In this document: piece by piece, positions 1,101 through 27,245 of the stretch
Numbering within the stretch: the stretch's first letter is position 1
How the letters are laid out: every line of letters starts with the position of its first letter
Source: a virus
Virus record (IMG/VR): IMGVR_UViG_3300017917_000938
Span: 1 to 28,782 of that record
Reading direction: 5' to 3' (one strand)
DNA: 28,782 nt
Position numbers and translations under genes: made by a program
Notes under the pieces: generated by a model
What the model saw: the letters and a program-made list of their open reading frames with translations, nothing else
Told to the model about the DNA's origin: nothing
Database searches by the model: none

Positions 1101-1793
1101 ATGGGATTTAATTTTGCACAAAAAATAGTAACAAGTGGTTTAGTATTATACCTAGACGCTGCTAATAATAAATCATATCCTGGTAGTGGAACTACATGGA
1201 CTGATTTAAGTCAATATGGAAATAATGCTACTTTAGCTAATGGTCCTACATATAGTACTAGTAACGCTGGTATTTTATCTTTTGATGGTATAGATGATAC
1301 ATTTACAACAGCGGCTTTTAAAACAGTTACTACAGGAAGCAATGTGAACAATGATACCACTAATGAAATATGGTATAAATGGAATGGAGTAAATCAAGCT
1401 AAAGTTATTTCTTTGGTAGGTAACATTTCTTCTGCAGGATATTTAGGTTTAATTATAAATAATGGCTCTGGGGGTAGTGGAAATATTGTTACAGTAATAT
1501 ATGGAGGACAATATTATAGTGCAATTGACACCGGAACTTCATCCGCTTCATTAGTTTCTGGTATATGGACACAATTAGTAGTAACTAAAACTACAAGCAT
1601 TTGTAAATTTTATCAAAATGGTGTTTTTTTAGGTAGTACAATAAGATCACAATCAAACTATACAACAACATCGCCTTATCTATCATCAACATTTGCTGGT
1701 GGATTAGGATGTTGTAAATTTTATAACAGAGCATTATCGGATACAGAAATATTACAAAACTATAATGCAACAAAAGGACGATTCGGACTATGA
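1101..1793 (+). CDS. LamG-like lectin-domain adhesin (one domain)
   Basis: This 230-aa protein is a single concanavalin A-like/LamG (Laminin_G_3 type) jelly-roll domain. The signature segments are visible: GLVLYLDAANNKSYPGSGTTW near residue 14, then a DLSQYGNNATL turn, LSFDGIDD (about 60-67), ICKFYQNGVFLGS (about 168-180), and the closing segment GGLGCCKFYNRALSDTEILQNYNATKGRFGL. Such domains bind carbohydrate and are common at phage tail tips. It starts four bases after the fibre gene and overlaps the next gene by ATGA, so the two are translationally coupled. The likely role is host glycan recognition or capsid decoration; which of these is not decidable here. Confidence 0.8.
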   Translation: MGFNFAQKIVTSGLVLYLDAANNKSYPGSGTTWTDLSQYGNNATLANGPTYSTSNAGILSFDGIDDTFTTAAFKTVTTGSNVNNDTTNEIWYKWNGVNQAKVISLVGNISSAGYLGLIINNGSGGSGNIVTVIYGGQYYSAIDTGTSSASLVSGIWTQLVVTKTTSICKFYQNGVFLGSTIRSQSNYTTTSPYLSSTFAGGLGCCKFYNRALSDTEILQNYNATKGRFGL

Positions 1794-3118
1794 GTACTGT
1801 ACAAAATATAAATAAAACAACAACAAATGGATTAGTACTATGTATTGATATTGGAAATGATAAATCTTACAATACCACAAATAATACATGTAGAGATATT
1901 AGTCCTTATAATAGATCGTGTACGGTAAATAATTCACCAGCATATCTTGCGGATAATGCTGGAAGTTTAGTATTTGATGGTACTAATCAAAAAAGTGTAA
2001 CTTTTTCACCTACAAATCTCCCAACAGGAAATGAATCATTTTCAATTAGCGTTTGGGCAAAAGTAAATGAAATACCAACCGGAGGAGATACTAGAAGATT
2101 TATATTTGCATATGGTAATGGTGGTGCTGGTTATTCAAGAACAATGAATATTGGTATAAATGGAAGTAGTTATTATATTGGTTCTTATGGATTAGATACA
2201 ACTGTAACTGGAGCTACAGTTCAAATAAAAAAATGGTTTAATATAGTATTAACAAAAGATGCTACTACATTAAGATTTTATGTAAATGGTGTACAAGTTT
2301 TTACAACAAGTTCACCAACATATGGTATTCAATTAGCTAGTGCTGTAATTGGTTATGGAATAGATAATAATGCCGCATGGAATGGAAATATAAGTATTGT
2401 AAAAGTTTATAATACGGTATTAAGTGCATCAGATATATTAAATGATTATAATATTATTTTTAAAAGATATGCTTATACAGTTCCTCCACCACCTATTATT
2501 ACTACAAATTTACAATTTTATGTGGATGCTGGAAAAACAGAATCATATCCTGGATCAGGAACTACATGGTATGATATAAGTGGAAAGGGAACAAATGCTA
2601 CTTTATATAATGGAATAACGTATAGTACTTTTGGAGGAGGATCATTAGTATTTGATGGAAATGATGATTATGCAGCATTTGATGGTGTTAATTTACCTTA
2701 TGGAAATAGTGCAAGAACAATATCTACTTGGTTTTATTGTACTGATGCAACATATTTTAATTGGATATTTGCTTATGGAACAAACTCAGGAAATCAGCCA
2801 ATTTTCTTAGGTAGTAACTGGGGTAGTTATGTTTATGGTACAGGATATGATATTTTAGCTGGTGGGTTTACAACTAATAAATGGACTAATTATGTTGGAA
2901 CATATAATGGAACATCTGCTAAAATATACGTTAATGGTGCTTTATTAACAACTGCAAATAGGACTTGGAATACAGTTAAAAATGTTGCAGAAATCGGAAG
3001 AGCTTTTGGTAATGGAGATAATTTTCCTGGATATATAGCAGCAATAGCAATATATAATGCAGAACTAACGGATGCACAAATAACTAATAATTATAACGCT
3101 TTAAAAGATAGATTTTAA
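1790..3118 (+). CDS. Double LamG-domain adhesin
   Basis: This 442-aa protein contains two LamG-like domains. Domain 1 (about 12-228) has NGLVLCIDIGNDKSY, LVFDGTNQ, LRFYVNGVQVF and IVKVYNTVLSASDILNDYN. A proline linker (VPPPPI, about 231-236) leads to domain 2 (about 238-442), with LQFYVDAGKTESYPGSGTTW, LVFDGNDDY and AIYNAELTDAQITNNYNALKDRF. The start is the ATG of an ATGA overlap with the preceding gene. The domains are clearly homologous to each other and to those in the flanking genes. It is probably a tail or virion-surface carbohydrate-binding protein. The two-domain form could have arisen by fusion of two single-domain genes. Confidence 0.8.
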   Translation: MSTVQNINKTTTNGLVLCIDIGNDKSYNTTNNTCRDISPYNRSCTVNNSPAYLADNAGSLVFDGTNQKSVTFSPTNLPTGNESFSISVWAKVNEIPTGGDTRRFIFAYGNGGAGYSRTMNIGINGSSYYIGSYGLDTTVTGATVQIKKWFNIVLTKDATTLRFYVNGVQVFTTSSPTYGIQLASAVIGYGIDNNAAWNGNISIVKVYNTVLSASDILNDYNIIFKRYAYTVPPPPIITTNLQFYVDAGKTESYPGSGTTWYDISGKGTNATLYNGITYSTFGGGSLVFDGNDDYAAFDGVNLPYGNSARTISTWFYCTDATYFNWIFAYGTNSGNQPIFLGSNWGSYVYGTGYDILAGGFTTNKWTNYVGTYNGTSAKIYVNGALLTTANRTWNTVKNVAEIGRAFGNGDNFPGYIAAIAIYNAELTDAQITNNYNALKDRF

Positions 3119-3120
3119 TT

Positions 3121-4473
3121 ATGAGTGGTAATATAAGTACAAAAAAAATAGTAACAGACGGTTTAGTATTACATTTAGATGCTGCTAATAATAAATCTTA
3201 TGTTAGTGGTAGTACTACATGGAATGATTTAACTAATTTAAATAATACCTCTTCATTAACAAATAGTCCAACATTTAGTAGTGATAATGCCGGAGGCATT
3301 GTATTTGATGGAATAGACGATTATATAGCATTGCCAGCAATAGATACAAATAATAATTTTACATTATCTTTTTGGGTAATGAGAACTAATGATACATTCA
3401 CAACTATAATTGCGGGAGTTAATGCGACTGGATATTTGCAAGTAAGAAGTGGAGCTCTAAGTGTATCATTAGTAAAATCATGGGTAGTAGAATTAGGAAA
3501 TTTTGGCATCACCTCAGGAGTATCTAAAGATACAATAAACAATATTGTAATTACTAAAAATGGAACTACATTTAGTGCATATATTAATGGAAAATTTATA
3601 GGTAATTTAACAGTTAACCAAACGTTTACAACGTCAGCACCAACATTAGGAAGGAATTATAATTTAAATGAACCTTTTTCAGGTAGATATTATATATTTA
3701 GCTATTATAATAGAAAATTAACAGACTCTGAAATTTCTCAAAATTATAACGCATTAAGAGGTAGATTCAATCTAGGACCAACTCCGGATGTTATTATAAA
3801 GTCTGATACATTATTTAATGTAGATGCATCTAATAGTACATCATATCCAGGAAGTGGAACAACTTGGTTTGATTTGGGTGATTACAAATTTAATGGTTCA
3901 TTGAAAAATGGTGTAACATATAATAGTAGTAATGGAGGAAGTTTATATTTAGACGGTGGAAGCCAGAGAATAGAATTTGATGCTGGTACACTTTATACTA
4001 ATGATGCAGATTACACATTCAATGTATGGTTTAAAAATGATAATTTTTCGGAAATTAAATATGTAATGCATAGAGGAAGAAACCATACTGCAAATGGTTG
4101 GAGTTTAATGTTAACTTTAAATACTACAGGTAAAGCTGTAGCATCTGTTGTATATACATCACCGTCAGTTGTTAGTTTGAGTACATCTACGGGTCCATCA
4201 ACGTTATCTTTAAATACTTGGTATCATATTACTGGAGTTTGGAAACAAGGAGTTGGTATTTATTGTTATGTTAATGGAGTATTGGAAGGTAGTGCAACAA
4301 CAACTGGTACAATTTTACGCTCAAGTTCACTTTATGGTTGGGTATTGGGTTCAATAGATACATCAACTTACACTAGTGGGTATTATGGGTCGGCTAAAGT
4401 TAATTTTAGAGCATTGACCGATGCTGAAATACTAGCAGATTTTAATGCAACTAAAACAAGATTTGGATACTAA
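3121..4473 (+). CDS. Double LamG-domain adhesin
   Basis: This 450-aa protein contains two LamG-like domains. Domain 1 (about 12-215) has DGLVLHLDAANNKSY, IVFDGIDDYIALP, FSAYINGKFIGN and YNRKLTDSEISQNYNALRGRFNL. Domain 2 (about 226-450) has DTLFNVDASNSTSYPGSGTTW, LYLDGGSQRIEF, IYCYVNGVLEGS and FRALTDAEILADFNATKTRFGY. The linker is short and acidic/proline-containing (GPTPDVII). The ATG lies two bases after the previous stop. The end of domain 1 still matches the natural C-terminus of the single-domain gene at 1101, which supports origin by tandem fusion. It is a likely receptor- or glycan-binding virion protein. Confidence 0.8.
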   Translation: MSGNISTKKIVTDGLVLHLDAANNKSYVSGSTTWNDLTNLNNTSSLTNSPTFSSDNAGGIVFDGIDDYIALPAIDTNNNFTLSFWVMRTNDTFTTIIAGVNATGYLQVRSGALSVSLVKSWVVELGNFGITSGVSKDTINNIVITKNGTTFSAYINGKFIGNLTVNQTFTTSAPTLGRNYNLNEPFSGRYYIFSYYNRKLTDSEISQNYNALRGRFNLGPTPDVIIKSDTLFNVDASNSTSYPGSGTTWFDLGDYKFNGSLKNGVTYNSSNGGSLYLDGGSQRIEFDAGTLYTNDADYTFNVWFKNDNFSEIKYVMHRGRNHTANGWSLMLTLNTTGKAVASVVYTSPSVVSLSTSTGPSTLSLNTWYHITGVWKQGVGIYCYVNGVLEGSATTTGTILRSSSLYGWVLGSIDTSTYTSGYYGSAKVNFRALTDAEILADFNATKTRFGY

Positions 4474-4486
4474 AAATAATAAAAAT

Positions 4487-4753
4487 ATGGAACAACTAAA
4501 CAACTATCAAGACAGAACATTCATGATATTTAATGTATCAGAATTAAATAAAATTGATTTTACACAAGTACTAGAAACATCTGAAGAAACAGTAAGAAAA
4601 TCAGTAGATGAAACAAAAACTTTTGTAAAATGGGAAGGACAAATACCAGAATGTGTAGACACATTAACAACAAAAGAAGGACCATACACATATGAAGAAA
4701 TGTTAGCATTGATGGCTACACCAGAATGGAATAATCCTATCGTTATGTCATAA
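4487..4753 (+). CDS. Small conserved phage protein of unknown function
   Basis: This is an 88-aa protein. I chose the ATG at 4487 rather than the in-frame ATG at 4445, because 4487 follows an A-rich leader (TAAAAATAATAAAAAT) after the previous stop, as for the neighbours, whereas 4445 lies inside the LamG gene. The sequence has an N-terminal segment RTFMIFNVSELNKIDF, a central TKTFVKWEGQIP, and a C-terminal GPYTYEEMLALMATPEWNNP. I recognise this only as a type of small ORF that sits among tail-fibre genes of marine T4-like phages. No membrane segment or catalytic motif is visible. It might be a fibre-assembly or attachment factor, but that is a guess from position. Confidence 0.65.
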   Translation: MEQLNNYQDRTFMIFNVSELNKIDFTQVLETSEETVRKSVDETKTFVKWEGQIPECVDTLTTKEGPYTYEEMLALMATPEWNNPIVMS

Positions 4754-4762
4754 AAATATATT

Positions 4763-5533
4763 ATGTCACTAATAATAAACAGTAATACAATAATTAGGGC
4801 TCAAACAGTAATAGGAAATCCACCTTCTGGTATTTGGAATGGTGTAAGCGGAGCTGTAGCTATATACGATGCCTCATCATATACTAGTGGAAATACCTGG
4901 GTAGATTCTAGTGGTAATGGTAGAAATATGGTATTGACAAATCCTGTATACACAAGTGGAGCTAATCCATATTTTACATCTAATAGCAGTACTATGTTTG
5001 CTATACCTGGTAATCCTGCACTTTATACATCTAATTTTACGTGGTGTATGAGAATAAGATTTACAGGGCCTGGTTCAGGTGATTGGAGTGGATTATGGTG
5101 GTCTGAAATATCTGTAAAGAACTTCTTAATAGCTTTTGCAGGAGGAAACTGGAATGTTACTGGAAGTTGGGTACCAAGAATAGATACTAGTGGTGGTGTT
5201 TATATCCCATGGAATGCTAATAATGGTGTTACAAACCAAGGAACATCTCCAGCATTATGTACAGCAAATTATACACAATCTGCACCAGCTGCGATGTTAA
5301 CTGTTCGTAGAACTGGTAGTCTTGTTGAATGGTTTATTAATAACGAAGTTATATGGACTATAACAATATCAAGTTGGGTGACATATAACGCTAATCAAGA
5401 TATTCGCATATTAAGTAGATCTCAAGGTGTCTATTATACAGCCGGTAGATTAGCAAACGTATACATGTATGGTAGATCATTAAGCAACGCTGAATTAGCC
5501 GAAGTGGAATTAAATACTAGACGAAATTTATAA
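4763..5533 (+). CDS. Divergent LamG-like domain protein
   Basis: This 256-aa protein is a more divergent lectin-like jelly roll than the three genes before it. It retains AVAIYDASSYTSGNTWVDSSGNGRN near the start (compare LDAANNKSYPGSGTTW in the relatives), a tryptophan-rich core (FTWCMRIRFTGPGSGDWSGLWW), the LVEWFINNEVIWTI strand, and a closing segment NVYMYGRSLSNAELAEVELN that matches the FYNRALSDTEILQNYN ends. It probably binds carbohydrate as part of the adhesin set. The NPPSGIWNGV segment ahead of the domain may be its linker to the virion. Confidence is lower than for the canonical LamG genes. Confidence 0.65.
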   Translation: MSLIINSNTIIRAQTVIGNPPSGIWNGVSGAVAIYDASSYTSGNTWVDSSGNGRNMVLTNPVYTSGANPYFTSNSSTMFAIPGNPALYTSNFTWCMRIRFTGPGSGDWSGLWWSEISVKNFLIAFAGGNWNVTGSWVPRIDTSGGVYIPWNANNGVTNQGTSPALCTANYTQSAPAAMLTVRRTGSLVEWFINNEVIWTITISSWVTYNANQDIRILSRSQGVYYTAGRLANVYMYGRSLSNAELAEVELNTRRNL

Positions 5534-5786: not shown

Positions 5787-8252
5787 ATGCCAAATGAATT
5801 TATCGCCCGCAATGGACTCATTACTTTAGGTAATATTGGTATAAACACAACAACACTACAATCAGGTGGAGCATCATCTAGATGGATAACACTAAATGGA
5901 AGCGCAGGCACCTATTCAGGTGGTCATATTTACACGATAGGAGATGCTATTAAGATGTATCATTATGTTGATAATGATTCGATGTTTACCCATCAGGCAA
6001 CAGCTGGAATAGGACAGAAATTTTTTGTTAGTGGTTCTGAAGCTATGCGTATAACATCAGCAGGTAACGTATCAATAGGTAACACAAATAATACATATAA
6101 GTTAGATGTAACGGGAATAATTCGTTCTTCTGCTTCAATTATTAGAGGAGGAGCAAGTTCTGTATCTTATTTAGTATTTGATGCTACTGATAGAACAAGT
6201 GGAAGAAATTATGAAATAGGTAGTGGATATTCAAATATTGGTAATGAGAAATTTTATATTTGGGATAATACGGCTAATGCAGGAAGATTAGTAATTGATT
6301 CAAGTGGTAATGTAGGTATAGGTAATACAAATCCACAAAGTTCATTACATGTAGGTTCTATCATTACTAATAATGCCACATATAATGGTCAATTAATTTT
6401 AAAATCAGGAAATTCAACAGCAGGACCTCAAGATGCGAGTGGGATTGAAATTGTACAAGCAGATGTGAATGCTGGTTATGGTATGAAATTATATACCAAT
6501 AGCGCAACCGACCAATGTGGAATAGCAACAAGACATAACACTGCAACATGGACACCAAGATTATCAATTTCAACGGTAACAGGTAATGTAGGTATAGGAG
6601 TAACGCCAAGTGCATGGGATCCAACATTCAAAGCATTGCAAATAGGCAATAGAGCGTCAGTATTTTCATTTAATAATAACACAACAGATGTTGGTTCAAA
6701 TGTTTATTATGCAACAGATTATAAATATTTAGAATCAGCTTACTCTACAATTTATCGACAAGCAACTACAACAGGACAGCATCAATGGTACATAGCACCA
6801 TCAGGAACAGCAGGAAATCCTATTACCTTTACACAAGCAATGACCTTAGATGCAAATGGTAGATTGGGTATAGGTACTACAAGTCCGCAATATAAATTAG
6901 ATGTTAATGGCGAAATATCTTCTACAAGAATGTATGCTGGACAAAAAGGACTATTAGTAAGTTTTTATGGAGCATTAAGTCAGACAATATCTGGTCAAAT
7001 GACTATTTTAGGCCACAATTTAATTGCAGATTCATCAGCAGCAAATACTGTTTTAGTTTTAAATTCTTCATGGTATTCCTCTATGGTTAGAATGTATTAT
7101 AATGAAGGTATAACTTTTCATACAAGTACAACCGTTTATAATGCAGGAGATGTTTATCCAATGGCATCTACCGAAAGAATGCGTATAACATCAGCAGGTA
7201 ATGTAGGTATAGGTACTACAAGTCCAAGTGCGCCACTTCATGTAAATAGTTCATCTCAAAATGTTGGTATAATAATAGACGATAATTCAAATGTACGTTC
7301 TCCGACATTAGCTTTTTATATTTCAGGTACTATTAAAAATTATATTCAAACATCTAATTCAAATTCTGACTTTATTTTTGGTGTTAATAACGTAGAAAGA
7401 ATGCGTATAACATCAGGTGGTAATGTAGGTATAGGTACTACAAGTCCTGAAGCTATTTTACATATAAATAAAAACAATGCAGGTGGTGAAGGAGCATTTT
7501 TATTTATAGATAATCCAGCAGCAAGTACGTTAGGTAATAAGGCAGGTATTAGATTTGCTACAAATGCAGGTGCAACATTTGCAAATTATGGTTCAGCAAT
7601 TGAGGCAATAAATACTAATGCTGGGGATGGTTCAGAAGCATTAACATTTTCAACATGGAATGGTTCAGCAAGAGGAGAAAGAATGCGTATAACATCGGCA
7701 GGAGATATAATTGTCGGAAATTCGGCAGCAGCATTTGCATCAATTAATAGAAGATGTGTAGAAATTAATGGAGCAACAAGTTCAATATTGACTTTACAAG
7801 TAGCAGGAGAACATAAAGGATACGTTTATAGTGAAGCTTCCGCATTATATTTATCAAGAACACAAGCAGGCGGAAATCTATTTGTTGTTAATAATAGTAA
7901 TGGTGTTATATTAGGTGAAAATGCAACATCATGGACAGCAAATTCAGATATAAGACTTAAAAATATAAATGGAAACATAGAAAATGCTGTTGATAAATTA
8001 TGTACTTTAAGAACAGTAAATTTTTCATGGAAAAGTGATGCTACAAATAAAGAAAATTTAGGTCTTATAGCACAAGATGTAGAAAAAGTTTTTCCACAAG
8101 TAGTAGATAAAAATAAATTACCAAGCACACCTGAAAAACCAAACACAGATGATACAGAATATTTAGGAGTAAGATATTCTGAATTAGTACCTGTATTAAT
8201 AAAAGCAATTCAAGAACTTAAACAAGAAATAGAAATACTTAAAAACAAATAA
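5787..8252 (+). CDS. Long tail fibre with C-terminal peptidase S74 chaperone
   Basis: This 821-aa fibre begins MPNEFIARNGLI, sharing MPNEF with the fibre at 74. The shaft consists of beta-rich repeats punctuated by MRITSAGNVGIGTTSP-type motifs (about residues 90, 470, 545, 635), typical of phage fibres ending in an intramolecular chaperone. The C-terminal S74 domain starts at SDIRLK (Ser720-Lys725), followed by GLIAQDVEKVFPQVV and LGVRYSELVPVLIKAIQELKQEIEILKNK, a terminal helix. In this family the Ser-Lys dyad cleaves the chain just before the Ser, releasing a chaperone of about 100 residues after the trimer has folded. All key residues are present, so self-cleavage is expected. It is a likely long receptor-binding fibre. 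A LamG-type domain is not evident in it. Confidence 0.9.
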   Translation: MPNEFIARNGLITLGNIGINTTTLQSGGASSRWITLNGSAGTYSGGHIYTIGDAIKMYHYVDNDSMFTHQATAGIGQKFFVSGSEAMRITSAGNVSIGNTNNTYKLDVTGIIRSSASIIRGGASSVSYLVFDATDRTSGRNYEIGSGYSNIGNEKFYIWDNTANAGRLVIDSSGNVGIGNTNPQSSLHVGSIITNNATYNGQLILKSGNSTAGPQDASGIEIVQADVNAGYGMKLYTNSATDQCGIATRHNTATWTPRLSISTVTGNVGIGVTPSAWDPTFKALQIGNRASVFSFNNNTTDVGSNVYYATDYKYLESAYSTIYRQATTTGQHQWYIAPSGTAGNPITFTQAMTLDANGRLGIGTTSPQYKLDVNGEISSTRMYAGQKGLLVSFYGALSQTISGQMTILGHNLIADSSAANTVLVLNSSWYSSMVRMYYNEGITFHTSTTVYNAGDVYPMASTERMRITSAGNVGIGTTSPSAPLHVNSSSQNVGIIIDDNSNVRSPTLAFYISGTIKNYIQTSNSNSDFIFGVNNVERMRITSGGNVGIGTTSPEAILHINKNNAGGEGAFLFIDNPAASTLGNKAGIRFATNAGATFANYGSAIEAINTNAGDGSEALTFSTWNGSARGERMRITSAGDIIVGNSAAAFASINRRCVEINGATSSILTLQVAGEHKGYVYSEASALYLSRTQAGGNLFVVNNSNGVILGENATSWTANSDIRLKNINGNIENAVDKLCTLRTVNFSWKSDATNKENLGLIAQDVEKVFPQVVDKNKLPSTPEKPNTDDTEYLGVRYSELVPVLIKAIQELKQEIEILKNK

Positions 8253-9948: not shown

Positions 9949-11664
9949 ATGGCAGAAAAAATTATTTCACCTGGTGTATTCCAAAACGAATCTGACCAAT
10001 CATTAGTACAAAGAGGTATTCAAGGTACTGCAACAGCAATTGTTGGCCCTACAGTGTTAGGTCAACCATTTGTTCCTACCTATGTTACGTCATATAGTGA
10101 ATATGTGTCTAAGTTCGGGGAAACTTTTAAAAGTGGTAGCTACTACTACGAATATTTAACTTCATTAGCAGCAAAAGATTACTTCCAAAACGGAGGTCAA
10201 ACATTATTAGTAACTAGAGTTATAGCTAGCGGTAGCAATATGAGTACATATGCTAGCGCATTTGTATCAGCTTCAGTAGGTGCAGCATTTGTATTAGAAA
10301 CATTAGCTTGGGGTGATATTATGAATAACACTTCTAGCATGTCTAGTGGTGCTTTAGCTAGTGGTAGTGCAACAAACGTTCGTTGGGAAATTACAAACGT
10401 AAGTACAGGAAGTGGAACATTTACTTTAGCAGTTCGTGCTGGTAATGACAATGACACTCAAAAGAATTACATAGAAACATGGGCAAATTTATCATTAGAC
10501 CCAGCTTTACCTAACTACATCTCTCGTGTTATTGGTGATACTAAACCAGTATACAAAGTAGATACTGATGGTACTCCTTACATTGATTATACTGGTTCTT
10601 ATGCAAACGCTTCTCAATTCATCCGCGTTCAATCAGTAACAGCTCCTCAAGTAGATTCTATTGATAACAATGGTAACTACAAATCAGCTTCTTTAGCATC
10701 TGGTTTACCGCTTGTAGGTAGTGGATCATACGGTGGTTCATTTGCTGGTGGTTTATCTGATACAGCTTTAGCAAAATTAATGAATGAAAACATTACAGCG
10801 AACAATAACCAAGGATTTACTTCAGGTTCTTTCCAAATAGCTTTTGGTATATTAGGAAATAAAGATGAATATAGATTTAATGTATTATTAGCTCCTGGTG
10901 TAACTTTAAATAGCCCAACAGCAACATCAATGATTTCTACTTGTGAAGGTAGAGGTGATTCTATTGCAATAATAGATACTACATTATTTGGTTCAACTGT
11001 AAGCGGAGCTACACAAGCTGCTGCTGGTCAATCAAGTAACTATGCAGCTACTTACTGGCCTTGGATTCAATTATACAGCTCTAACTTAGGTAAAGCAGTA
11101 TGGGCTCCATCTTCAACAGTAATGGGTGGAGTATATGCATTTAACGATCAGGTAGCAGCAAGTTGGTTCGCACCTGCTGGTTTAAATCGTGGTGGTGTTC
11201 CTTCAGTATTAAAAGCTGAACGTAAATTATCTCAAAGCGATCGTGATGCTTTATATAATGGAAATGTTAACCCATTAGCTACATTCCCTGGAGAAGGTGT
11301 TGTAGTATTTGGTCAGAAAACATTACAACGTAAACCAACAGCTTTAGATAGAGTAAATGTTCGTCGTTTATTAATTGCATTGAAAGACTTCATTGGTCAA
11401 GTAGGTAATAACTTAGTATTCGAACAAAACACAAATATAACTCGTAATAAGTTCTTAGCACAAGTTAATCCATACATGGACTCAGTAGTACAACGTCAAG
11501 GTTTATACGCTTACAAAGTGGTAATGGATGAAACAAACAATACTGCTGATGTAATAGATAGAAACCAATTAGTAGGTCAAATATACATTCAACCAACTAA
11601 GACTGCTGAATTTATTATTTTAAACTTCAATGTATTACCAACCGGAGCTACATTTCCTGCATAA
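9949..11664 (+). CDS. Contractile tail sheath protein (T4 gp18-like)
   Basis: This 571-aa protein is of sheath family length (T4 gp18 is 659 aa). The N-terminus MAEKIISPGVFQNESDQSLV and the following GIQGTATAIVGPTVLGQPFVPTYV are typical of phage sheath proteins, whose termini thread into neighbouring subunits. The C-terminal sheath domain (about 455-571) shows RKPTALDRVNVRRLLIALKD, NITRNKFLAQVNPYMDSVVQ and IQPTKTAEFIILNFNVLPTG, the hallmark conserved region. The protein polymerises around the tail tube and contracts on infection. The tube gene follows, as in T4. The codons are richer in C/G third positions than in the fibre genes, consistent with high expression. A terminator hairpin overlaps its stop. 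Confidence 0.95.
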   Translation: MAEKIISPGVFQNESDQSLVQRGIQGTATAIVGPTVLGQPFVPTYVTSYSEYVSKFGETFKSGSYYYEYLTSLAAKDYFQNGGQTLLVTRVIASGSNMSTYASAFVSASVGAAFVLETLAWGDIMNNTSSMSSGALASGSATNVRWEITNVSTGSGTFTLAVRAGNDNDTQKNYIETWANLSLDPALPNYISRVIGDTKPVYKVDTDGTPYIDYTGSYANASQFIRVQSVTAPQVDSIDNNGNYKSASLASGLPLVGSGSYGGSFAGGLSDTALAKLMNENITANNNQGFTSGSFQIAFGILGNKDEYRFNVLLAPGVTLNSPTATSMISTCEGRGDSIAIIDTTLFGSTVSGATQAAAGQSSNYAATYWPWIQLYSSNLGKAVWAPSSTVMGGVYAFNDQVAASWFAPAGLNRGGVPSVLKAERKLSQSDRDALYNGNVNPLATFPGEGVVVFGQKTLQRKPTALDRVNVRRLLIALKDFIGQVGNNLVFEQNTNITRNKFLAQVNPYMDSVVQRQGLYAYKVVMDETNNTADVIDRNQLVGQIYIQPTKTAEFIILNFNVLPTGATFPA

Positions 11665-11714: not shown

Positions 11715-12200
11715 ATGGCAGTATTAGATGCAAATGAGATTATGTTTACAGCATTTGAACCAAAGGTTCAGAACCGTTTCATAATGTATATAGATGGAAT
11801 CCCAGCATATTTAATCAAGAAAGCTTCAGCTCCTGGATTTGAAGCTGGAGAAATCATATTAGATCACATTAACGTTTACCGTAAAGTAAAAGGTAAAGTT
11901 AAATGGGATGATATGACTTTAGAATTATACGATCCTGTAACACCGTCTGGTGCACAAGCAGTAATGGAGTGGGCTCGTTTAGCACACGAATCTGTAACTG
12001 GTCGTGATGGATATTCTGACTTCTATAAAAAAGATTTAACATTAAATATACTAGGTCCTGTAGGGGATGTAGTAGGTGAATGGATTATTAAAGGAGCTTA
12101 CATTAGGACAGCAAAATTTGGAGATTATGATTGGAGCAGTGAGGCACCAATTAGCTTATCTGTTACAGTTACTATGGATTATTGCGTACTCAATTTTTGA
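11715..12200 (+). CDS. Tail tube protein (T4 gp19-like)
   Basis: This 161-aa protein is essentially the length of T4 gp19 (163 aa). It starts MAVLDANEIMFTAFEPKVQNRFIMYIDGIPAYLIKKASAPGFE, the typical tube N-terminus in which the segment NRFIMYIDGIPAYLIKKA forms the first strands. It continues with VYRKVKGKVKWDDMTLELYDPV and ends AKFGDYDWSSEAPISLSVTVTMDYCVLNF, matching the family's final strands. It stacks in hexameric rings inside the sheath to form the DNA conduit. It is flanked by hairpins and ATATTTAT elements on both sides, suggesting a separately controlled, strongly expressed transcript. Confidence 0.93.
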   Translation: MAVLDANEIMFTAFEPKVQNRFIMYIDGIPAYLIKKASAPGFEAGEIILDHINVYRKVKGKVKWDDMTLELYDPVTPSGAQAVMEWARLAHESVTGRDGYSDFYKKDLTLNILGPVGDVVGEWIIKGAYIRTAKFGDYDWSSEAPISLSVTVTMDYCVLNF

Positions 12201-12471: not shown

Positions 12472-13227
12472 ATGGCAGAATTAAAAATCCCAACAGAAAC
12501 CGTTACATTACCTTCAAAAGGTTTACTGTATTCTAAAGAATCACCACTTTCTAAAGGTGAAATTGAAATGTGTTACATGACAGCAAAACATGAAGACATT
12601 TTAACTAATGTTAACTATATTAATCAAGGTATTGTAATTGATAAATTATTACAAGCATTGATTGTAACACCTATTAACTATGACGATTTAGTTGTAGGAG
12701 ATAAAAATGCAATAATGATTGCAGCTCGTGTTTTAGGTTATGGTAAAGACTATACATTTAGTTATGTTAGTAAAGGTAAAGAACTAACAACGACTGTTGA
12801 CTTATCTGCTCTTAAAGATAAAGAGATAGATGAATCTTTATTCATCGGTGGTGTAAATGAATTTACATTCACATTACCAACAACAGGTAATGTAGTTACA
12901 TTTAAACTATTAACACACGGTGATGAGAAAAAAATAGAGGCTGAAATTAAGGGATTGAAAAAAGTAAATCCAAACGGCTCTACTGATGTTACTACTCGTT
13001 TAAAACACATAATAACATCTATCAATGGAGATAGGGAACCAAAAGCAATCAGAGATTTCGTTGATAATAACTTCTTAGCACCTGAAGCTAGAGCATTTAG
13101 AGAATACTATAGCAAAATATCACCAGATATCAATCTAAAGTTTATTCCTGAAGACGATAACTATGTAGGGGAGGGCATAGATATTCCTATATCTCTTAAC
13201 TTTTTTTGGCCTGACGCCGGAGTATAG
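12472..13227 (+). CDS. Tail/baseplate-hub assembly chaperone, short form
   Basis: This is a 251-aa protein. The N-terminus (KIPTETVTLPSKGLLYSKESPLSKGEIEMCYMTAKHEDILTN) and the later segments VIDKLLQALI, ITSINGDREPKAIRDFVDNNFLAPEARAFREYYSKISPD fit the T4-like baseplate hub assembly protein type (gp26/gp51-like), which occupies the position of tail assembly chaperones just before the tape measure. It ends NFFWPDAGV. The ending coincides with a T7 run from which a +1 shift opens a conserved-looking 90-codon extension, so this is probably the short product of a two-product gene. It lies downstream of a terminator and promoter-like element. The family call is from recollection of motifs, not a search. 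Confidence 0.75.
   Translation: MAELKIPTETVTLPSKGLLYSKESPLSKGEIEMCYMTAKHEDILTNVNYINQGIVIDKLLQALIVTPINYDDLVVGDKNAIMIAARVLGYGKDYTFSYVSKGKELTTTVDLSALKDKEIDESLFIGGVNEFTFTLPTTGNVVTFKLLTHGDEKKIEAEIKGLKKVNPNGSTDVTTRLKHIITSINGDREPKAIRDFVDNNFLAPEARAFREYYSKISPDINLKFIPEDDNYVGEGIDIPISLNFFWPDAGV
13200..13209 (+). other. Candidate programmed frameshift site
   Basis: In the chaperone frame the codons are AAC TTT TTT TGG. A +1 (or -2) slip on the seven-T run gives TTT TTT GGC and enters a frame that is open from 13181 to 13480. That frame has no ATG, GTG or TTG before 13304, so it lacks a plausible independent start. The -1 frame closes at once (TGA 13212-13214). A GC-rich stretch (GGCCTGACGCCGG) follows the slip site. 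Confidence 0.55.
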
Positions 13228-13480
13228 ACTACATCTATTCAGACAAATACATGAAATAGTATTTAACAGTCAAGGAGGATACGATTGGAGTACTGTATAT
13301 AATATGCCTATTTGGTTGCGACGTTTTACTTTTGAAACATTGCGTGAGCATTATGAGAAACAAAAAGAGGAAATGGACAAACAACAAAATATGTTAAAGA
13401 ATACTAATAATAAAGAATTATCACGACCAAACATTGCTCCTAAGCAACCAACATACACAGCAAAGGCGCCTAAAAAATAG
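13208..13480 (+). CDS. Assembly chaperone C-terminal extension (frameshift product)
   Basis: This frame, entered by a +1 or -2 shift, encodes GLTPEYRLHLFRQIHEIVF, NSQGGYDWSTVYNMPIWLRRF, then a Lys/Glu/Gln-rich tail ending TAKAPKK. The full fusion would be about 335 aa. The region upstream of the first ATG (13304) is as protein-like as the rest, including the GGYDWSTVYNMPIWLRR core, so initiation at 13304 would lose half of the domain. Long/short pairs made by frameshifting just before the tape measure are known for many tailed phages (lambda G/GT type). An assembly error in the T-run is the main alternative. Confidence 0.6.
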   Translation, partial: GLTPEYRLHLFRQIHEIVFNSQGGYDWSTVYNMPIWLRRFTFETLREHYEKQKEEMDKQQNMLKNTNNKELSRPNIAPKQPTYTAKAPKK

Positions 13481-13515: not shown

Positions 13516-15642
13516 ATGGCTACACCACAACCACCAGATGTTAATAATTTAAGGGAGGTAAATCAAGAACTATCTATTATTGAAGATTCACTTACAAGTA
13601 TAGGAGTATTATTACAATCTAAAATTGAAGAAGCTTTTGCTAATGTTCAAGATTCAACCCAAACTATAGCTGAGATATATAATAAAAATCTAAACAAGAG
13701 TATTAGAGATATGGCTAAAAACTCTGATACTATTCTTAAAAACAGCTTAGGAATAATATCAGGGCAAAACAAAACTAAAGATATTAGCAAACAGTTATTA
13801 AATCTTGAAATAAAAAAAGAAGCAACTGCCCGAAATATTGAAATGCTTAAAGCTAATGGGTTGATAGATGATGTTGAATCTCTTAAACTACAGGAAGATT
13901 TAACAGAACAATATGATGCTCAAAAGAACTTACTAACAAAACAATTAGATTTTAGTAAAGAAATTGAAGATAAAGTTGGATTAACAGGTAAACTTTTAAA
14001 AGAATCTTCTAAAATACCTATTATAGGTAAATTTATAGATGGTGAAGAAGCTTTAACTAAAATGAACATAGCAGCAGCTAAAGGTGCATCAAAACTTACT
14101 GTTTTAGCAACTGGTTTTGCTTCTGTAGGAAAAAGTTTAGCTAAAAATTTATTTGATCCTTTAACAACTATTGTTCTTTTATTTAATAGTGCTTTAAAAG
14201 CTAACAAACAGATTGTAGATTTAGGTAAAGCATTAGGTAAAGATTCATACGATTATAGACAAAATATAGCATCCGCTGCTCGTTCGTCAAGTAATTTAAA
14301 TGTTACTACTGAAAATTTAGTAGGAGCATTTAATGAAATATCCCAATCCACAGGATACACATACGAATATACAGCCGATCAACTTGAAACTCAAGTTAAG
14401 TTAACTAAACAAGTAGGCTTACAAGCAGACGAAGCTGCACAAATACAAAGATATGGTGTTTTAAATAACCAAACATCAGAAAAAACATATAGTAATTTTA
14501 TTAAAGGATTAGTATCAGCTAGAAATCAACTTAGAGTAGGTATTGATTTTAAAGCTACATTAGCAGAGGCAGTAAAAGTATCAGGTCAGTTAGCAGCGAA
14601 TCTAGGATACAATCCTGAACGTATTGCTAAAGCTATAGTTACTGCTAAAGCATTTGGTATGACTTTAGATCAAGTAGCGAAATCAGGAGAAGCATTATTA
14701 AATTGGGAATCATCTATTGATAATGAACTTAAAGCTGAATTATTAACTGGTAAACAATTAAATTTAGAAAAAGCTCGTTATGCGGCTTTAACTGGTGATC
14801 AAGTTGCATTAGCTGAAGAATTAGCAAACCAAGTAGGAACTGCAGCCGATTTTACTAAAATGAATGTATTGCAACAGAAAGCATTAGCTGAGTCTGTTGG
14901 TATGACCGCTGATGAGCTTTCAAATACATTAAGAAAACGAGAAGAAGCTATTAAAAGTGGTAAATCATTAGCACAAATAACTGATGAAGAGGCTAAACAA
15001 GCTATTGAAAGACAAAATATACAAGATAAATTTAACGCTGCTATTTTAAAATTACAAGATTTAGTGGGTAATTTAGTAGCAGGTCCTTTTGGACAACTAC
15101 TAGATATATTAGCAAAATCACTAAATATAATATCTAGTATATTAAGTAATTCTTTAGTTTTAGGAGCTGTATTGGGGGGTGTAGTAGGAGCTAATTTATT
15201 AAAGATGGTTGGTTATTTTAAGCAAATGAAAAAACTATCCATTGCAACTGCTATAACGGATATTGTTAGTGCTGCTTTTAAATCTTTAGGTCCTTTACCT
15301 GTTGTAGGTATGGCTTTAGCAGGAGCTGCTGCTGGTGCTGGTATAGCTTATTTGATGAGCCAATCATCTAAATCTGGTCCTGAATTTGCAGCAGGTGGTA
15401 TTGTAACAAGTGAAATTAATAATGCTACTATTGGTGAAGCTGGTCCTGAAGCTATTATACCATTAAATTCTCCAAAAGCAGCAGGAATGTTAGGGGGAAA
15501 TGTAGATCTAACACCAATGATAGCTGCTATAAATGAAGTTAGAGCATCTGTTGATAGATTATACAACAAAAATACAACAATTAATATGGACAGTAAGCAA
15601 GTAGGTTCAACACTAGTACAAAGTTCATATAAACTAGCATAA
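13516..15642 (+). CDS. Tail tape measure protein
   Basis: This 708-aa protein has long helical, coiled-coil regions in its first 500 residues (EVNQELSIIEDSLTSIGVLLQ; QLLNLEIKKEATARNIEMLK; EDLTEQYDAQKNLLTKQLDF). Hydrophobic segments occur at about 530-620 (ILSNSLVLGAVLGGVVGANLL; LPVVGMALAGAAAGAGIAYLM). Near the C-terminus (about 626-655) it carries GGIVTSEINNATIGEAGPEAIIPL, the typical end motif of tape measure proteins. It sets tail length and is expelled with the DNA. At about 0.15 nm per residue it would correspond to a tail of roughly 100 nm. It directly follows the frameshifted chaperone, the expected order. Confidence 0.9.
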   Translation: MATPQPPDVNNLREVNQELSIIEDSLTSIGVLLQSKIEEAFANVQDSTQTIAEIYNKNLNKSIRDMAKNSDTILKNSLGIISGQNKTKDISKQLLNLEIKKEATARNIEMLKANGLIDDVESLKLQEDLTEQYDAQKNLLTKQLDFSKEIEDKVGLTGKLLKESSKIPIIGKFIDGEEALTKMNIAAAKGASKLTVLATGFASVGKSLAKNLFDPLTTIVLLFNSALKANKQIVDLGKALGKDSYDYRQNIASAARSSSNLNVTTENLVGAFNEISQSTGYTYEYTADQLETQVKLTKQVGLQADEAAQIQRYGVLNNQTSEKTYSNFIKGLVSARNQLRVGIDFKATLAEAVKVSGQLAANLGYNPERIAKAIVTAKAFGMTLDQVAKSGEALLNWESSIDNELKAELLTGKQLNLEKARYAALTGDQVALAEELANQVGTAADFTKMNVLQQKALAESVGMTADELSNTLRKREEAIKSGKSLAQITDEEAKQAIERQNIQDKFNAAILKLQDLVGNLVAGPFGQLLDILAKSLNIISSILSNSLVLGAVLGGVVGANLLKMVGYFKQMKKLSIATAITDIVSAAFKSLGPLPVVGMALAGAAAGAGIAYLMSQSSKSGPEFAAGGIVTSEINNATIGEAGPEAIIPLNSPKAAGMLGGNVDLTPMIAAINEVRASVDRLYNKNTTINMDSKQVGSTLVQSSYKLA

Positions 15643-23572: not shown

Positions 23573-24460
23573 ATGAATGTATTTAATTTTTTTAAATTCT
23601 TAGAAGATAAAGAAAACAGAAAAATACCCGGTAGGGCTAAAATACTAGATCCTAACTATGTATTTGATGTAAATGATTTTATAGATGGAGAGGGAGATAT
23701 AGATTTACAAGGATACAAAAGATCTATACTACTACCTGACAATTTAACTGTAGAAGGTAGTTTGCTATTAGGTTCTACACCTATTGAATCATTACCGGAT
23801 AATTTAACTGTAGCAGGTAGTCTTAGTTTAGCTTATTGCCAAAATCTACAATCACTACCTAACAATTTAAAGGTAGGAGATTTACTTGATTTACATAAGT
23901 GTGAAAATCTACAATCACTACCTGACAATTTAACTGTAGGAGGTGATCTTGATTTATCTTTTTGCATAAATCTACAATCATTACCGAACAACTTAACTGT
24001 AGGAGGTAATCTTGATTTATCTTTTTGCGAAAATTTACAATCACTACCTGACAATTTAACTGTAGGTGGTACTCTTGTTTTAGCTAGTTGTAAAAGTTTA
24101 CAATCACTACCTGACAATTTAACAAGAGTAAAAGGTGATTTTGATTTACGGGAGTGTGAAAATCTACAATCACTACCTGACAACTTAACTGTAGGAGGTC
24201 ATCTTGATTTATCTTTTTGCACAAATCTACAATCACTACCTGACAATTTAACTGTAGGTGGTACTCTTGTTTTAGATTATTGTAAAAGTTTACAATCACT
24301 ACCTGACAATTTAACAGTACACGGTAATATTTATGTGTACCATACACCATTATCAAAAAAATACACAGAAGAAGAAATTAAACAAATGTGCCCTGATGTT
24401 ATAGGAGATATAATTGGAGCTAAAAGCAATGAATCAAGAAGAAACACACGAAACCCATGA
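23573..24460 (+). CDS. Cys-type leucine-rich-repeat protein 1 (10 repeats)
   Basis: This is a 295-aa protein. Residues 1-50 form a head (VFNFFKFLEDKENRKIPGRAK, DPNYVFDVNDFIDGEGDIDL) shared with three later genes. Ten 21-residue LRRs follow, with consensus LQSLPDNLTVGGxLxLxxCxN, giving a column of Cys at the same repeat position (SFC, HKC, ASC, REC). The tail TPLSKKYTEEEIKQMCPDVIGDI is also shared. It ends AKSNESRRNTRNP, a read-through compared with its relatives, overlapping the next start by ATGA. LRRs are protein-binding scaffolds; no signal peptide is present, so it acts in the cytoplasm or inside the virion. The partner is unknown. Confidence 0.85.
   Translation: MNVFNFFKFLEDKENRKIPGRAKILDPNYVFDVNDFIDGEGDIDLQGYKRSILLPDNLTVEGSLLLGSTPIESLPDNLTVAGSLSLAYCQNLQSLPNNLKVGDLLDLHKCENLQSLPDNLTVGGDLDLSFCINLQSLPNNLTVGGNLDLSFCENLQSLPDNLTVGGTLVLASCKSLQSLPDNLTRVKGDFDLRECENLQSLPDNLTVGGHLDLSFCTNLQSLPDNLTVGGTLVLDYCKSLQSLPDNLTVHGNIYVYHTPLSKKYTEEEIKQMCPDVIGDIIGAKSNESRRNTRNP
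23731..24324 (+). repeat. 63-nt LRR-coding repeats in LRR gene 1
   Basis: About ten 63-nt units with high DNA similarity (CTACAATCACTACCTGAC, then AATTTAACTGTAGGAGGT in most). One unit is 66 nt because of an extra codon (LTRVKG). The 110 bases at 24110-24219 recur at 24814-24923 in LRR gene 2 with two differences. Near-identity of units at DNA level points to recent duplication or gene conversion. Confidence 0.85.
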
Positions 24461-25155
24461 CCGTACTTAATTTTTTCAAATTTTTAGAAGATAAAGAAGA
24501 TAGAGCAATACCTCCTAGGGCTAGATTAGCTTTAGATCCTGACTATGTGTTTGATGTAAAGGACTTTGAAGATAAAGATGGAAATGTAAGACTAAGTGGA
24601 AATCCTAACATTATTTCTATTCCTACTAATAATCTAACTGTGAAAGGTTATCTTGAGTTAGCTGATTGCAGAAAACTACAATCATTACCTAATAATTTAA
24701 TTGTAGGTGACTACCTTGATTTATCTTTTTGCATAAATTTACAATCACTACCAGATAATCTAAATGTAGGTAGGCAAATTTATTTAAAAGGTTGTAAAAG
24801 TTTACGATCATTACCTGACAATTTAACAAGAGTAAAAGGTAGTTTTGATTTACGGGAGTGTGAAAATCTACAATCACTACCTGACAACTTAACTGTAGGA
24901 GGTCATCTTGATTTATCTTTTTGTAAAAGTTTACAATCACTACCTGACAATTTAACAGTACACGATGTTTATTTAGATTATACTTCTATTGAAACACTAC
25001 CTAAAGACTTAAAAATACACGGTAATATTTTTATGTACAATACCCCATTATCAAAAAAATACACAGAAGAAGAAATTAGACAAATGTGTCCTGGTATTAA
25101 AGGAGACATATATGGAGCTAAAGGAGCAAAAACTACTAACATATTTACAAATTAA
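24457..25155 (+). CDS. Cys-type leucine-rich-repeat protein 2 (7 repeats)
   Basis: This is a 232-aa paralogue of the gene at 23573. The head MTVLNFFKFLEDKEDRAIPP and DPDYVFDVKDFEDKDGNVRL is almost the same as in the genes at 25877 and 26556. About seven LRR units follow, including the LTRVKGSFDLRECEN unit shared with gene 1, then a unit without the Cys (YLDYTSIETLPKDL), then the tail TPLSKKYTEEEIRQMCPGIKGDIYGAKGAK. The ATG is within ATGA of gene 1. The function is unknown; the fold suggests binding of another protein. Confidence 0.85.
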   Translation: MTVLNFFKFLEDKEDRAIPPRARLALDPDYVFDVKDFEDKDGNVRLSGNPNIISIPTNNLTVKGYLELADCRKLQSLPNNLIVGDYLDLSFCINLQSLPDNLNVGRQIYLKGCKSLRSLPDNLTRVKGSFDLRECENLQSLPDNLTVGGHLDLSFCKSLQSLPDNLTVHDVYLDYTSIETLPKDLKIHGNIFMYNTPLSKKYTEEEIRQMCPGIKGDIYGAKGAKTTNIFTN

Positions 25156-25165
25156 AAAATAATAA

Positions 25166-25873
25166 ATGATACAACTACTACCAATCCTACTTGAATCACT
25201 AAATGAAGCATCAATTGAACAGCTTCAACAAATTTATGTAGATAAAAACATAATATCTAGTGAAGATTTTGAAGCTATTAAAAAAGCTACTAACAATAAA
25301 GGAGCATATGCTACCTGGTTAGCTAAAAAAGTAGCAGATAAAATAATTAAAGCTGAAGACATTTACAAATATGAAGAATATTTTAAAATATTTGATAAAT
25401 ATAGAGCCAAATACCCATTAAAGGATATCAACCAGTACAAAACTAAAAGCGACGTCCAATCTTTTATAGAAACAACAACTGGTATAAAAGATAATCTAAC
25501 TAAGGTTACAGGAGGACAGAGTACAGAACCTAGTAAAAATCTAGTTCCTATAAAAGGAGTAGAAGAATTAAAATCAGTTGGTATTTCTCTTTTAGGAATA
25601 GTTGATGGATATCAATGTTTTAAAGTTCCAAGTTCATTAGAAGGAAATGAAGCAGCATGGAAAATTTATAGAAAATGGTTAGCAAGATGTGGTGGAAGAG
25701 GAGAAGGAGAATCAATAGAAATTTGTACTATGGGTAGTTTTGGTCATTTTAATACATACATAGCAAAAGGTCCTCTCTATGTATTTTTTAATATGAATGA
25801 TAATCTATCCCCATATCAATTCAGCTATGAAACCAACCAATTTATGGATAAAAATGATAAGGAATTGATATAA
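25166..25873 (+). CDS. Unrecognised protein between LRR genes (235 aa)
   Basis: This 235-aa protein sits between LRR genes 2 and 3. The N-terminus MIQLLPILLESLNEA is a short amphipathic/hydrophobic helix like those of the genes at 24457 and 27247. A helical region follows (QLQQIYVDKNIISSEDFEAIKKATNNKGAYATWLAKKVADKII), then a linker with TGGQSTEPSKN. A second domain (about 125-235) has GYQCFKVPSSLEGNEAAWKIYRKWLARCGG, SIEICTMGSFGHFNTYIAKGPLYVFF and SPYQFSYETNQFMDKND. I do not recognise the family. The second domain could be a small enzyme or recognition module, but no catalytic signature is clear. It lies four bases upstream of LRR gene 3 and may function with it. Confidence 0.7.
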   Translation: MIQLLPILLESLNEASIEQLQQIYVDKNIISSEDFEAIKKATNNKGAYATWLAKKVADKIIKAEDIYKYEEYFKIFDKYRAKYPLKDINQYKTKSDVQSFIETTTGIKDNLTKVTGGQSTEPSKNLVPIKGVEELKSVGISLLGIVDGYQCFKVPSSLEGNEAAWKIYRKWLARCGGRGEGESIEICTMGSFGHFNTYIAKGPLYVFFNMNDNLSPYQFSYETNQFMDKNDKELI

Positions 25874-25876
25874 ATT

Positions 25877-26485
25877 ATGACCGTACTTGATTTTTTCAAA
25901 TTTTTAGAAGACAAGGAAGATAGAGCAATACCTCCTAGGGCTAGATTAGCTTTAGATCCTGACTATGTGCTTGATGTAAATGATTTTATAGATGAAAATG
26001 GAGATATAGATTTAAGTGGAAATCCTAACATTATTTCTATTCCTGTTGATAGTTTAACAGTGAAAGGTAATCTTGATTTACAAAGATGTAAAAATCTACA
26101 ATCATTACCTAACAATTTAAAGGTAGGAGGTTTACTTGATTTAATGTATTGTGAAAATCTACGATCACTACCGGACAACTTAAAAGTAGGTAGGCAAATT
26201 TATTTAAGAGGTTGTAAAAGTTTACAATCACTACCTGACAACTTAGATGTAGGAGGTAATCTTGATTTACCTTTTTGCATAAATCTACAATCATTACCGA
26301 ACAACTTAACTGTAGAAGGTGATCTTTATTTAGATTATTGCACAAATCTACAATCACTACCTGACAATTTAACAGTACACGGTGATGTTTATATGTACCA
26401 TACCCCATTATCAAAAAAATACACAGAAGAAGAAATTAAACAAATGTGCCCTGGTATTAAAGGAGACATATATGGAGGGAGCTAA
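25877..26485 (+). CDS. Cys-type leucine-rich-repeat protein 3 (6 repeats)
   Basis: This is a 202-aa paralogue with the head MTVLDFFKFLEDKEDRAIPP, DPDYVLDVNDFIDENGDIDL and SGNPNIISIPVDSLTVKGNL. It has about six LRR units (LQRCKN, MYCEN, RGCKS, PFCIN, DYCTN) and the tail TPLSKKYTEEEIKQMCPGIKGDIYGGS. It is the shortest of the four; relative to gene 2 it lacks the LTRVKG unit. The ending IYGGS arises from an extra short insertion (GGAGGGAGC) that brings in an early TAA compared with gene 1. The function is unknown, and the same scaffold interpretation applies. Confidence 0.85.
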   Translation: MTVLDFFKFLEDKEDRAIPPRARLALDPDYVLDVNDFIDENGDIDLSGNPNIISIPVDSLTVKGNLDLQRCKNLQSLPNNLKVGGLLDLMYCENLRSLPDNLKVGRQIYLRGCKSLQSLPDNLDVGGNLDLPFCINLQSLPNNLTVEGDLYLDYCTNLQSLPDNLTVHGDVYMYHTPLSKKYTEEEIKQMCPGIKGDIYGGS

Positions 26486-26490
26486 AAGCA

Positions 26491-26559
26491 ATGAATAAAG
26501 AAGAAACACACAAAACCAACATTTATTGGATCTACTTAAAGTATAAACAAAAACTATGA
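26491..26559 (+). CDS. Possible 22-aa peptide between LRR genes 3 and 4
   Basis: ATG 26491 opens a 22-codon frame, MNKEETHKTNIYWIYLKYKQ then KL, whose TGA overlaps the ATG of LRR gene 4. A clear relative lies after LRR gene 1 (24429-24470, MNQEETHETHDRT), truncated where the head of gene 2 begins. The shared peptide start and the overlap favour a real or formerly real small gene, but expression is unproven. An ACATTTATTGG string lies within it (26519-26529). Confidence 0.35.
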   Translation: MNKEETHKTNIYWIYLKYKQKL

Positions 26560-27245
26560 CCGTACTTAATTTTTTTAAATTTTTAGAAGACAAGGAAGAT
26601 AGAGCAATACCTCCTAAGGCTAGATTAGCTTTAGATCCTGACTATGTTTTTAATATAAATGATTTTATAGATAAAAACGGAGATATAGATTTAAGTGATA
26701 ATCCCAACATTATTTCTATTCCTGTTGATAGTTTAACAGTGAAAGGTAATCTTAATTTACACAGATGTAAAAATCTACAATCATTACCTAACAATTTAAA
26801 GGTAGGAGGTAATCTTCATTTAATGTATTGTGAAAATCTACAATCACTACCTGACAACTTAAAAGTAGGTCGTCATATTATTTTAGCTCATTGTAAAAGT
26901 TTACGATCATTACCTGACAACTTGAGAGTAGTAAATGGTACCCTTGATTTAATGGGTTGTAAAAATTTACAATCACTGCCTAATAACTTAACAACAATAG
27001 GATACAACCTTCTTATATCAGGCAATTCTAATATACAATCATTACCGAACAACTTAACTGTAGAAGGTGATCTTTATTTAGCAGATTGTACAAATCTACA
27101 ATCATTACCTGATAATTTAACTGTAGGAGGTGGTCTTTATATAAGAAGTACTCCTATAGCAAATAAATACACAGTCGACGAAATTCGACAAATGTATCCT
27201 GGAATTAAAGGAAAAATATCTGGATTTAAAAGAATAAAAAAATAA
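26556..27245 (+). CDS. Cys-type leucine-rich-repeat protein 4 (7 repeats)
   Basis: This is a 229-aa paralogue with the head MTVLNFFKFLEDKEDRAIPP, DPDYVFNINDFIDKNGDIDL and SDNPNIISIPVDSLTVKGNL. It has about seven LRR units, including variants not seen in the others: RVVNGTLDLMGCKN, and TTIGYNLLISGNSN, where Asn-rich SGN replaces the Cys column. Its tail (TPIANKYTVDEIRQMYPGIKGKISGFKRIKK) has diverged, with the Cys of QMCP changed to Tyr, and ends basic. It is followed one base later by the ParB-like small gene. It is the most diverged copy at the C-terminus. Confidence 0.85.
   Translation: MTVLNFFKFLEDKEDRAIPPKARLALDPDYVFNINDFIDKNGDIDLSDNPNIISIPVDSLTVKGNLNLHRCKNLQSLPNNLKVGGNLHLMYCENLQSLPDNLKVGRHIILAHCKSLRSLPDNLRVVNGTLDLMGCKNLQSLPNNLTTIGYNLLISGNSNIQSLPNNLTVEGDLYLADCTNLQSLPDNLTVGGGLYIRSTPIANKYTVDEIRQMYPGIKGKISGFKRIKK

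Follow-up and report, generated by a model that had tools for sequence, protein, structure and literature searches.

A gp26/gp51-type tail assembly chaperone gene with a probable +1 frameshift and a conserved upstream RNA element

A chaperone gene in two reading frames

We analysed a 28,782-nucleotide stretch of viral DNA (positions 1 to 28,782 of IMG/VR record IMGVR_UViG_3300017917_000938, hereafter the window) that contains a contractile-tail module in the order sheath, tube, chaperone gene and probable tape measure. The chaperone gene lies between the tail tube and tape-measure genes, the latter assigned by position; the positional counterpart of 13516–15642 in Flavobacterium phage immuto carries a tape-measure annotation. 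The features considered here are as follows.

9949–11664, plus strand: tail sheath gene, context of the chaperone gene
11715–12200, plus strand: tail tube gene, context of the chaperone gene
12472–13227, plus strand: 0-frame ORF, short product of 251 aa, T4 gp26-like hub/tail assembly chaperone (PF12322 / phrog_150)
13162–13179, plus strand: hairpin HP1, stem 13162–13166 with 13175–13179, UAUG..CAUA here, with a G-rich loop
13168–13175, plus strand: Shine–Dalgarno (SD)-like GGGGAGGG in the HP1 loop, its SD energy compared with synonymous codon shuffles
13179–13194, plus strand: tentative second hairpin HP2 (AGAUAU-UCCU-AUAUCU), between HP1 and the slip site
13201–13209, plus strand: +1 slip site UUU UUU UGG, P-site UUU to UUU, 0-frame A-site UGG
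13208–13480, plus strand: +1-frame T-like domain of 90 aa, homologous to the T4 gp51 C-terminal part and cyanophage gp51
13225–13227, plus strand: 0-frame stop codon UAG, end of the short form
13516–15642, plus strand: probable tape-measure gene, 708 aa, downstream of the chaperone gene

The 0-frame ORF ends in ...LNFFWPDAGV. The +1 frame is open from 13181 to 13480, its first ATG, GTG or TTG being the ATG at 13304, and the two frames overlap at AAC TTT TTT TGG CCT, in which the T7 run occupies 13201–13207. An original prediction made from this DNA had described these frames, coordinates and T run and the lack of a start codon before 13304, and all of this was confirmed in the window sequence. 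It had joined the frames as NFFGLTPEYR through a +1 or −2 slip; +1 joining does yield NFF-GLTPEYR, whereas −2 joining would yield NFFFGL. It had further held that a T6 or T8 run would create a single continuous ORF, which is correct for T6; T8 runs into TGA, and T9 would be needed instead.

Elsewhere in the window, 23573–27245 contains four paralogues (23573, 24457, 25877 and 26556) with leucine-rich repeats of the LPDNLTVGG type. By eye, a large tail protein (5787–8252) ends in a C-terminus like an endosialidase-type intramolecular chaperone (SDIRLKN...), and a row of similar tail-associated genes (1101–5533) carries LamG/concanavalin-like repeats.

Relationship to T4 gp26 and gp51

The short ORF matched phrog_150 in a profile search (E = 3e-11); its match to PF12322 (E = 2.6e-4) scored 21.2 bits, under the curated cut-off of 24.5. 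An AlphaFold (AF2) model of the fused protein, with a pLDDT of 86, matched T4-like baseplate hub assembly proteins in BFVD, the best named one being that of Bacillus phage SP-15 (E = 5e-16). Against the PDB the same model gave nothing at E ≤ 0.001, and the HK97 chaperone 2ob9 appeared only at E = 3.0. Because there was no structural match to solved tail chaperones, we confine the comparison with lambda G/GT to a protein that works like it.

T4 gp26 and gp51 both match PF12322 (5e-63 and 4e-52, respectively). On phrog_150, gp26 covers positions 14–235 and gp51 covers 13–280, and from this further reach we take gp51 to be a gp26-like protein with an added C-terminal part. When T4 gp51 C-termini and cyanophage-type domains were aligned with the +1 domain by hhalign, the score was 34.4 (probability 89%), whereas 150 column shuffles reached at most 15.2. 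The gp51 profile became significant after the cyanophage, phiM12 and phiW-14 domains were added; neither single-sequence HMM tests, nor initial profile comparisons between gp51 and the +1 domain, nor a direct HMM test of T4-type gp51 alone reached significance. As judged from the enlarged profile, the +1 domain shares homology with both cyanophage gp51 and the C-terminus of T4 gp51.

The match to phrog_150 is split over two ORFs, at an offset of −1, in Prochlorococcus phage P-SSM2, Synechococcus phage S-PM2, Pelagibacter phage HTVC008M and Sinorhizobium phage phiM12. At the end of gp26, phiM12 has U UUU UUU, and P-SSM2, S-PM2 and phiW-14 have U UUU UUC. All 77 relatives of P-SSM2 gp26 that could be scored have a TTTTTTC site and the gp51 domain in the −1 frame. 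Kyanoviridae cyanophages share with the window the same two domains, and their gp51 ORF overlaps the end of gp26. They differ in that the second domain lies at −1 behind the classical U UUU UUC, the two parts are annotated as two genes and an ATG is available to the gp51 ORF (77/77). Cyanophage gp26 and ‘gp51’ resemble one −1 frameshift gene (L293–L372; NC_006883, 6495–7390; NC_006820, 150471–151363). Separately, gp51 of one T4-like phage (L257:1983–2758) is split mid-gene into two frames, probably by an indel or sequencing error.

The window gene resembles T4 gp26/gp51 in its PF12322 and phrog_150 matches and in the homology of its +1 domain to the C-terminal part of gp51, but the short and long forms of T4 are two separate, divergently oriented genes, whereas here there is one gene with a +1 shift. 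From these profile relationships, T4 gp26 and gp51 appear to be a chaperone pair of the lambda G/GT type encoded by two genes. The gp26/gp51 family as a whole seems to reach its two products by three routes: two genes in T4 relatives, a putative −1 shift in cyanophage-type members and a +1 shift in the window's group.

The +1 arrangement among relatives and the direction of the shift

Three scans of viral contigs with the chaperone protein family provided 240 loci (L008–L247), and a search of annotated phage proteins matched Flavobacterium phage immuto, Microcystis phage Mel-JY01, Bacillus phage SP-15 and others. We scored the frame relation with profiles for both domains; 243 loci contain the two. 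The second domain is in the +1 frame at 242 of these loci, which come from widely divergent phages; isolates in GenBank with this relation are immuto, SP-15, Mel-JY01 and Streptococcus phage GXN1. At much lower similarity, Rhodothermus phage RM378 (L268, p029/p030) also displays TTT TTT TGG and a +1 continuation. The p030 product of RM378 is annotated from an internal GTG.

The sole exception (L077) carries a homing-endonuclease insertion: a GIY-YIG-like ORF at 5832–6446 separates the two chaperone parts, the downstream domain starts at its own ATG (6446), overlapping the endonuclease stop, and the slip site is altered to TTC TTC TGG CCC. An Rfam search of the window and five relatives, including L077, in which an intron was considered, returned no match.

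The 52-codon core of the +1 frame contained 0 stops, whereas the two remaining frames averaged 2.2 and 7.8. Across 70 unique close relatives the domain carries conserved residues, and the median dN/dS (omega) of its part past the 0-frame stop is 0.16. The downstream +1 domain is under purifying selection, and by these counts the +1 arrangement is evidently more than chance. The programmed frameshift proposed by the original prediction, giving long and short hub/tail assembly chaperones ahead of the tape measure, is supported by this comparison, which also brought to light matters beyond its scope: the upstream hairpin with its SD-like element, the homology of the +1 domain to the T4 gp51 C-terminus and the cyanophage −1 version.

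The downstream frame might instead encode an independent protein, reached by an internal start or through reinitiation; the SD-like GGGGAGGG might then serve a non-AUG start codon. Besides that element, the separate ATG of L077 and the ATG open to cyanophage gp51 speak for such a start, as do four of the 70 unique close relatives, whose +1 frame offers an ATG and no other start codon before the junction (for example, L031 and L064). Against it, a start codon ahead of the junction is missing from this frame in 64 of the 70, relatives have different codons (ATA, CAA, CGA or CTA) where the spacing would place a start, T4 gp51 fuses both domains and the invariance of the slip site would be without reason. 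Initiation from the SD-like element was rejected on the ground that the start codon is not conserved, and we consider an independent protein very improbable.

The overlap carries a near-invariant slippery sequence of the prfB type, UUU-U, CUU-U or UUU-C. The run reads TTT-TTT-TGG-CCT at 194 loci, TTT-CTT-TGG-CCT at 35, TTT-CTA-TGG-CCT at 4 and CTT-TTT-TGG at 3; at the remaining loci TAC, CAC, CGT or TTC replaces TGG, in one or two loci each. The A-site codon is UGG in 236 of 242 loci. SP-15 has UUU-UUU-C, and in the four loci with CUA before UGG a +1 slip must sit one codon earlier, at UUU-C. In prfB, CTTTGA is the standard site and TTTTTGA a rare alternative (PMC12421855).

These variants bear on the direction of the shift. 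A T7 run permits re-pairing either way, and the tail chaperone of phage Mu offers a precedent for −2 frameshifting (PMC5009743), which here would produce the NFFFGL fusion. At the 35 CTT sites, +1 is favoured over −2 because CUU to UUU is the prfB slip, while CUU to UUC re-pairs poorly, and the UUU-UUU-C of SP-15 also counts against −2. The CTT-U and UUU-C variants fit P-site slippage by +1, as in prfB, and disfavour −2, which has only a slim chance of being correct; of the two directions originally allowed, +1 is the one that stands.

Transcriptional slippage on the T7 run could also fuse the frames without any ribosomal shift, through a minority of T6 (or T9) mRNAs, and a seven-base homopolymer is indeed present at 194 loci. 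Yet loci with TTTCTTTGG or TTTCTATGG, in which T runs are at most 3, keep the frame relation, and the codon-phased conserved context and the upstream element point to translation. As CUU-U sites share the frame relation, we reject this and a homopolymer artefact as general mechanisms, and we give transcriptional slippage an equally slim chance. Sequencing error or a pseudogene, suggested by the homopolymer, is negligibly probable given an arrangement repeated in more than 240 loci, isolate genomes included, with non-homopolymer sites and an omega of 0.16 in the +1 frame. On the strength of the CTT-containing sites and the breadth of the arrangement, we reject error, transcriptional slippage and −2 shifting as general explanations.

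Our preferred reading, with a probability of roughly 0.9, is that 12472–13480 encodes a G/GT-like tail (hub) assembly chaperone pair made by a +1 ribosomal shift. Most ribosomes would terminate at 13225–13227 and release the 251-aa short form. Some would slip by +1 with tRNA-Phe in the P site, UUU UUU|UGG (13204–13206 to 13205–13207), and read on to 13480, producing a 335-aa long form (...NFF-GLTPEYR...) to which the T-like domain is added. Sequence comparison brings out the frame architecture, the slip site, selection on both products and the homology of the short form to gp26 and of the long form to gp51. By analogy with lambda G/GT and T4 gp26/gp51, together with the position of the gene, we infer the ribosomal shift and a role for both forms as chaperones of the tape measure (gp29-type).

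Like lambda G/GT, the gene has a short product and a frameshift-extended long one just upstream of the tape-measure gene, with an extra domain joined on close to where the short ORF ends. It differs from the −1 shift of lambda in its +1 direction, its prfB-like slip site and its upstream hairpin with an SD-like loop, and its protein, of the T4 gp26 type, resembles none of the solved tail chaperones to a detectable degree. With the prfB (RF2) site it shares a P-site CUU-U or UUU-U and an SD-like purine block upstream; there, however, the A-site codon is UGA rather than UGG, the block lies 3 nt rather than ~28 nt upstream of the slip codon, and the shift is regulated by RF2 rather than, as presumably here, constitutive. 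Among phage structural and tail-chaperone genes, precedents for access to a +1 frame are phage Mu (−2), archaeal HSTV-2 (likely +1) and Listeria PSA, which has +1 shifts in its capsid and tail shaft genes (PMC5009743). Their slip sites differ from the one described here (CCC-U in PSA). To our knowledge, their shifted proteins also belong to different families.

A hairpin with an SD-like loop upstream of the slip site

GGGGAGGG is invariant in all 70 unique close relatives, occurring once per locus and nowhere else in these loci, and its start is exactly 40 nt from the +1 GGC codon in every one. Codons 233–236 read GGG GAG GGY ATA, with GGG and GAG each in 70/70 and ATA in 68/68 of those with Ile; GGG is otherwise rare among Gly codons in these loci. 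In L031, L033–L035 and L064 an ATG in the +1 frame lies just past GGGGAGGG, at a spacing that could permit independent initiation.

The 5-bp stem of HP1 pairs in 100% of cells across 35 sequences, and sliding the partner abolishes the pairing. The same sequences hold 11 double-sided changes from A-U to G-C and one from U-A to C-G. By parsimony on the tree, the pair has switched at least seven times, both sides always together; 4 of these switches fall on well-supported branches, too few for significance in a sign test. The covariation is at the RNA level, because on one side of the pair the change is a synonymous one between the Gly codons GGU and GGC. It is confined to the window's clade, outside which the stem is not conserved, and some relatives (for example, L210, L239 and L103) have no obvious SD-like element. 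HP2 displays no strict covariation and is only suggestive, from its sequence and the family-wide excess of local folding.

Complementarity to CCUCCUUU at the element is −6.8 kcal/mol, compared with −3.8 kcal/mol in synonymous codon shuffles (116 sequences), or −10.6 against −5.1 kcal/mol in the window's clade alone, and the family region from −49 to −7 is more stably folded than its shuffles; the t values of these tests overstate independence, as the sequences are phylogenetically related. Taken together, these comparisons indicate that the upstream hairpin with its SD-like loop is under selection, and it probably acts as a stimulator or tuner of the shift. By eye and from pairing probabilities, we considered the T7 run, UCUCUU, UUCC and GGCCU as pairing partners of GGGGAGGG; none had convincing support.

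The SD-like block lies ~28 nt upstream of the slipping P codon, and HP1 ~25–42 nt behind that codon. With 3 nt in prfB, this distance puts the known SD effect out of reach, and we know of no SD stimulator that acts from ~30 nt behind the P site. One working idea is that the RNA structure refolds behind a ribosome arriving at the slip site; another is that the intervening hairpin cuts the distance from SD to slip site. That the loop stimulates the +1 shift from ~30 nt behind the P site, in a family whose gp26/gp51 pair would be made in three ways, is a proposal we hold tentatively, at somewhat under even odds. The host of the window virus is probably a member of the Bacteroidota, given immuto and the scarcity of SD sequences: SD-like sequence is found at only two of the window's 28 gene starts, as expected for Bacteroidota. 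Ribosomes of this phylum occlude the anti-SD (PMC8710568). Stimulation by the loop, if true, would act at a distance unlike that of known SD stimulators and on ribosomes whose anti-SD is normally occluded.

A 2016 review names T4 as the exception among long-tailed phages, in which G-T frameshifting is otherwise conserved (PMC5009743). T4 gp51 is essential for tail assembly but absent from the particle (PMC3004832). A literature search, limited to open papers, found no report of frameshifting in gp26/gp51, an absence that is weak evidence; the upstream RNA element is likewise previously unreported. The conserved hairpin with an SD-like loop may represent a new kind of +1 stimulator, in phages that hardly use SD sequences. 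Judging by our data, T4 would seem to be no real exception, with gp26 as the short and gp51 as the long chaperone. This correspondence gives the poorly understood but essential gp51 a testable role, and hundreds of phage genes could be correctly annotated.
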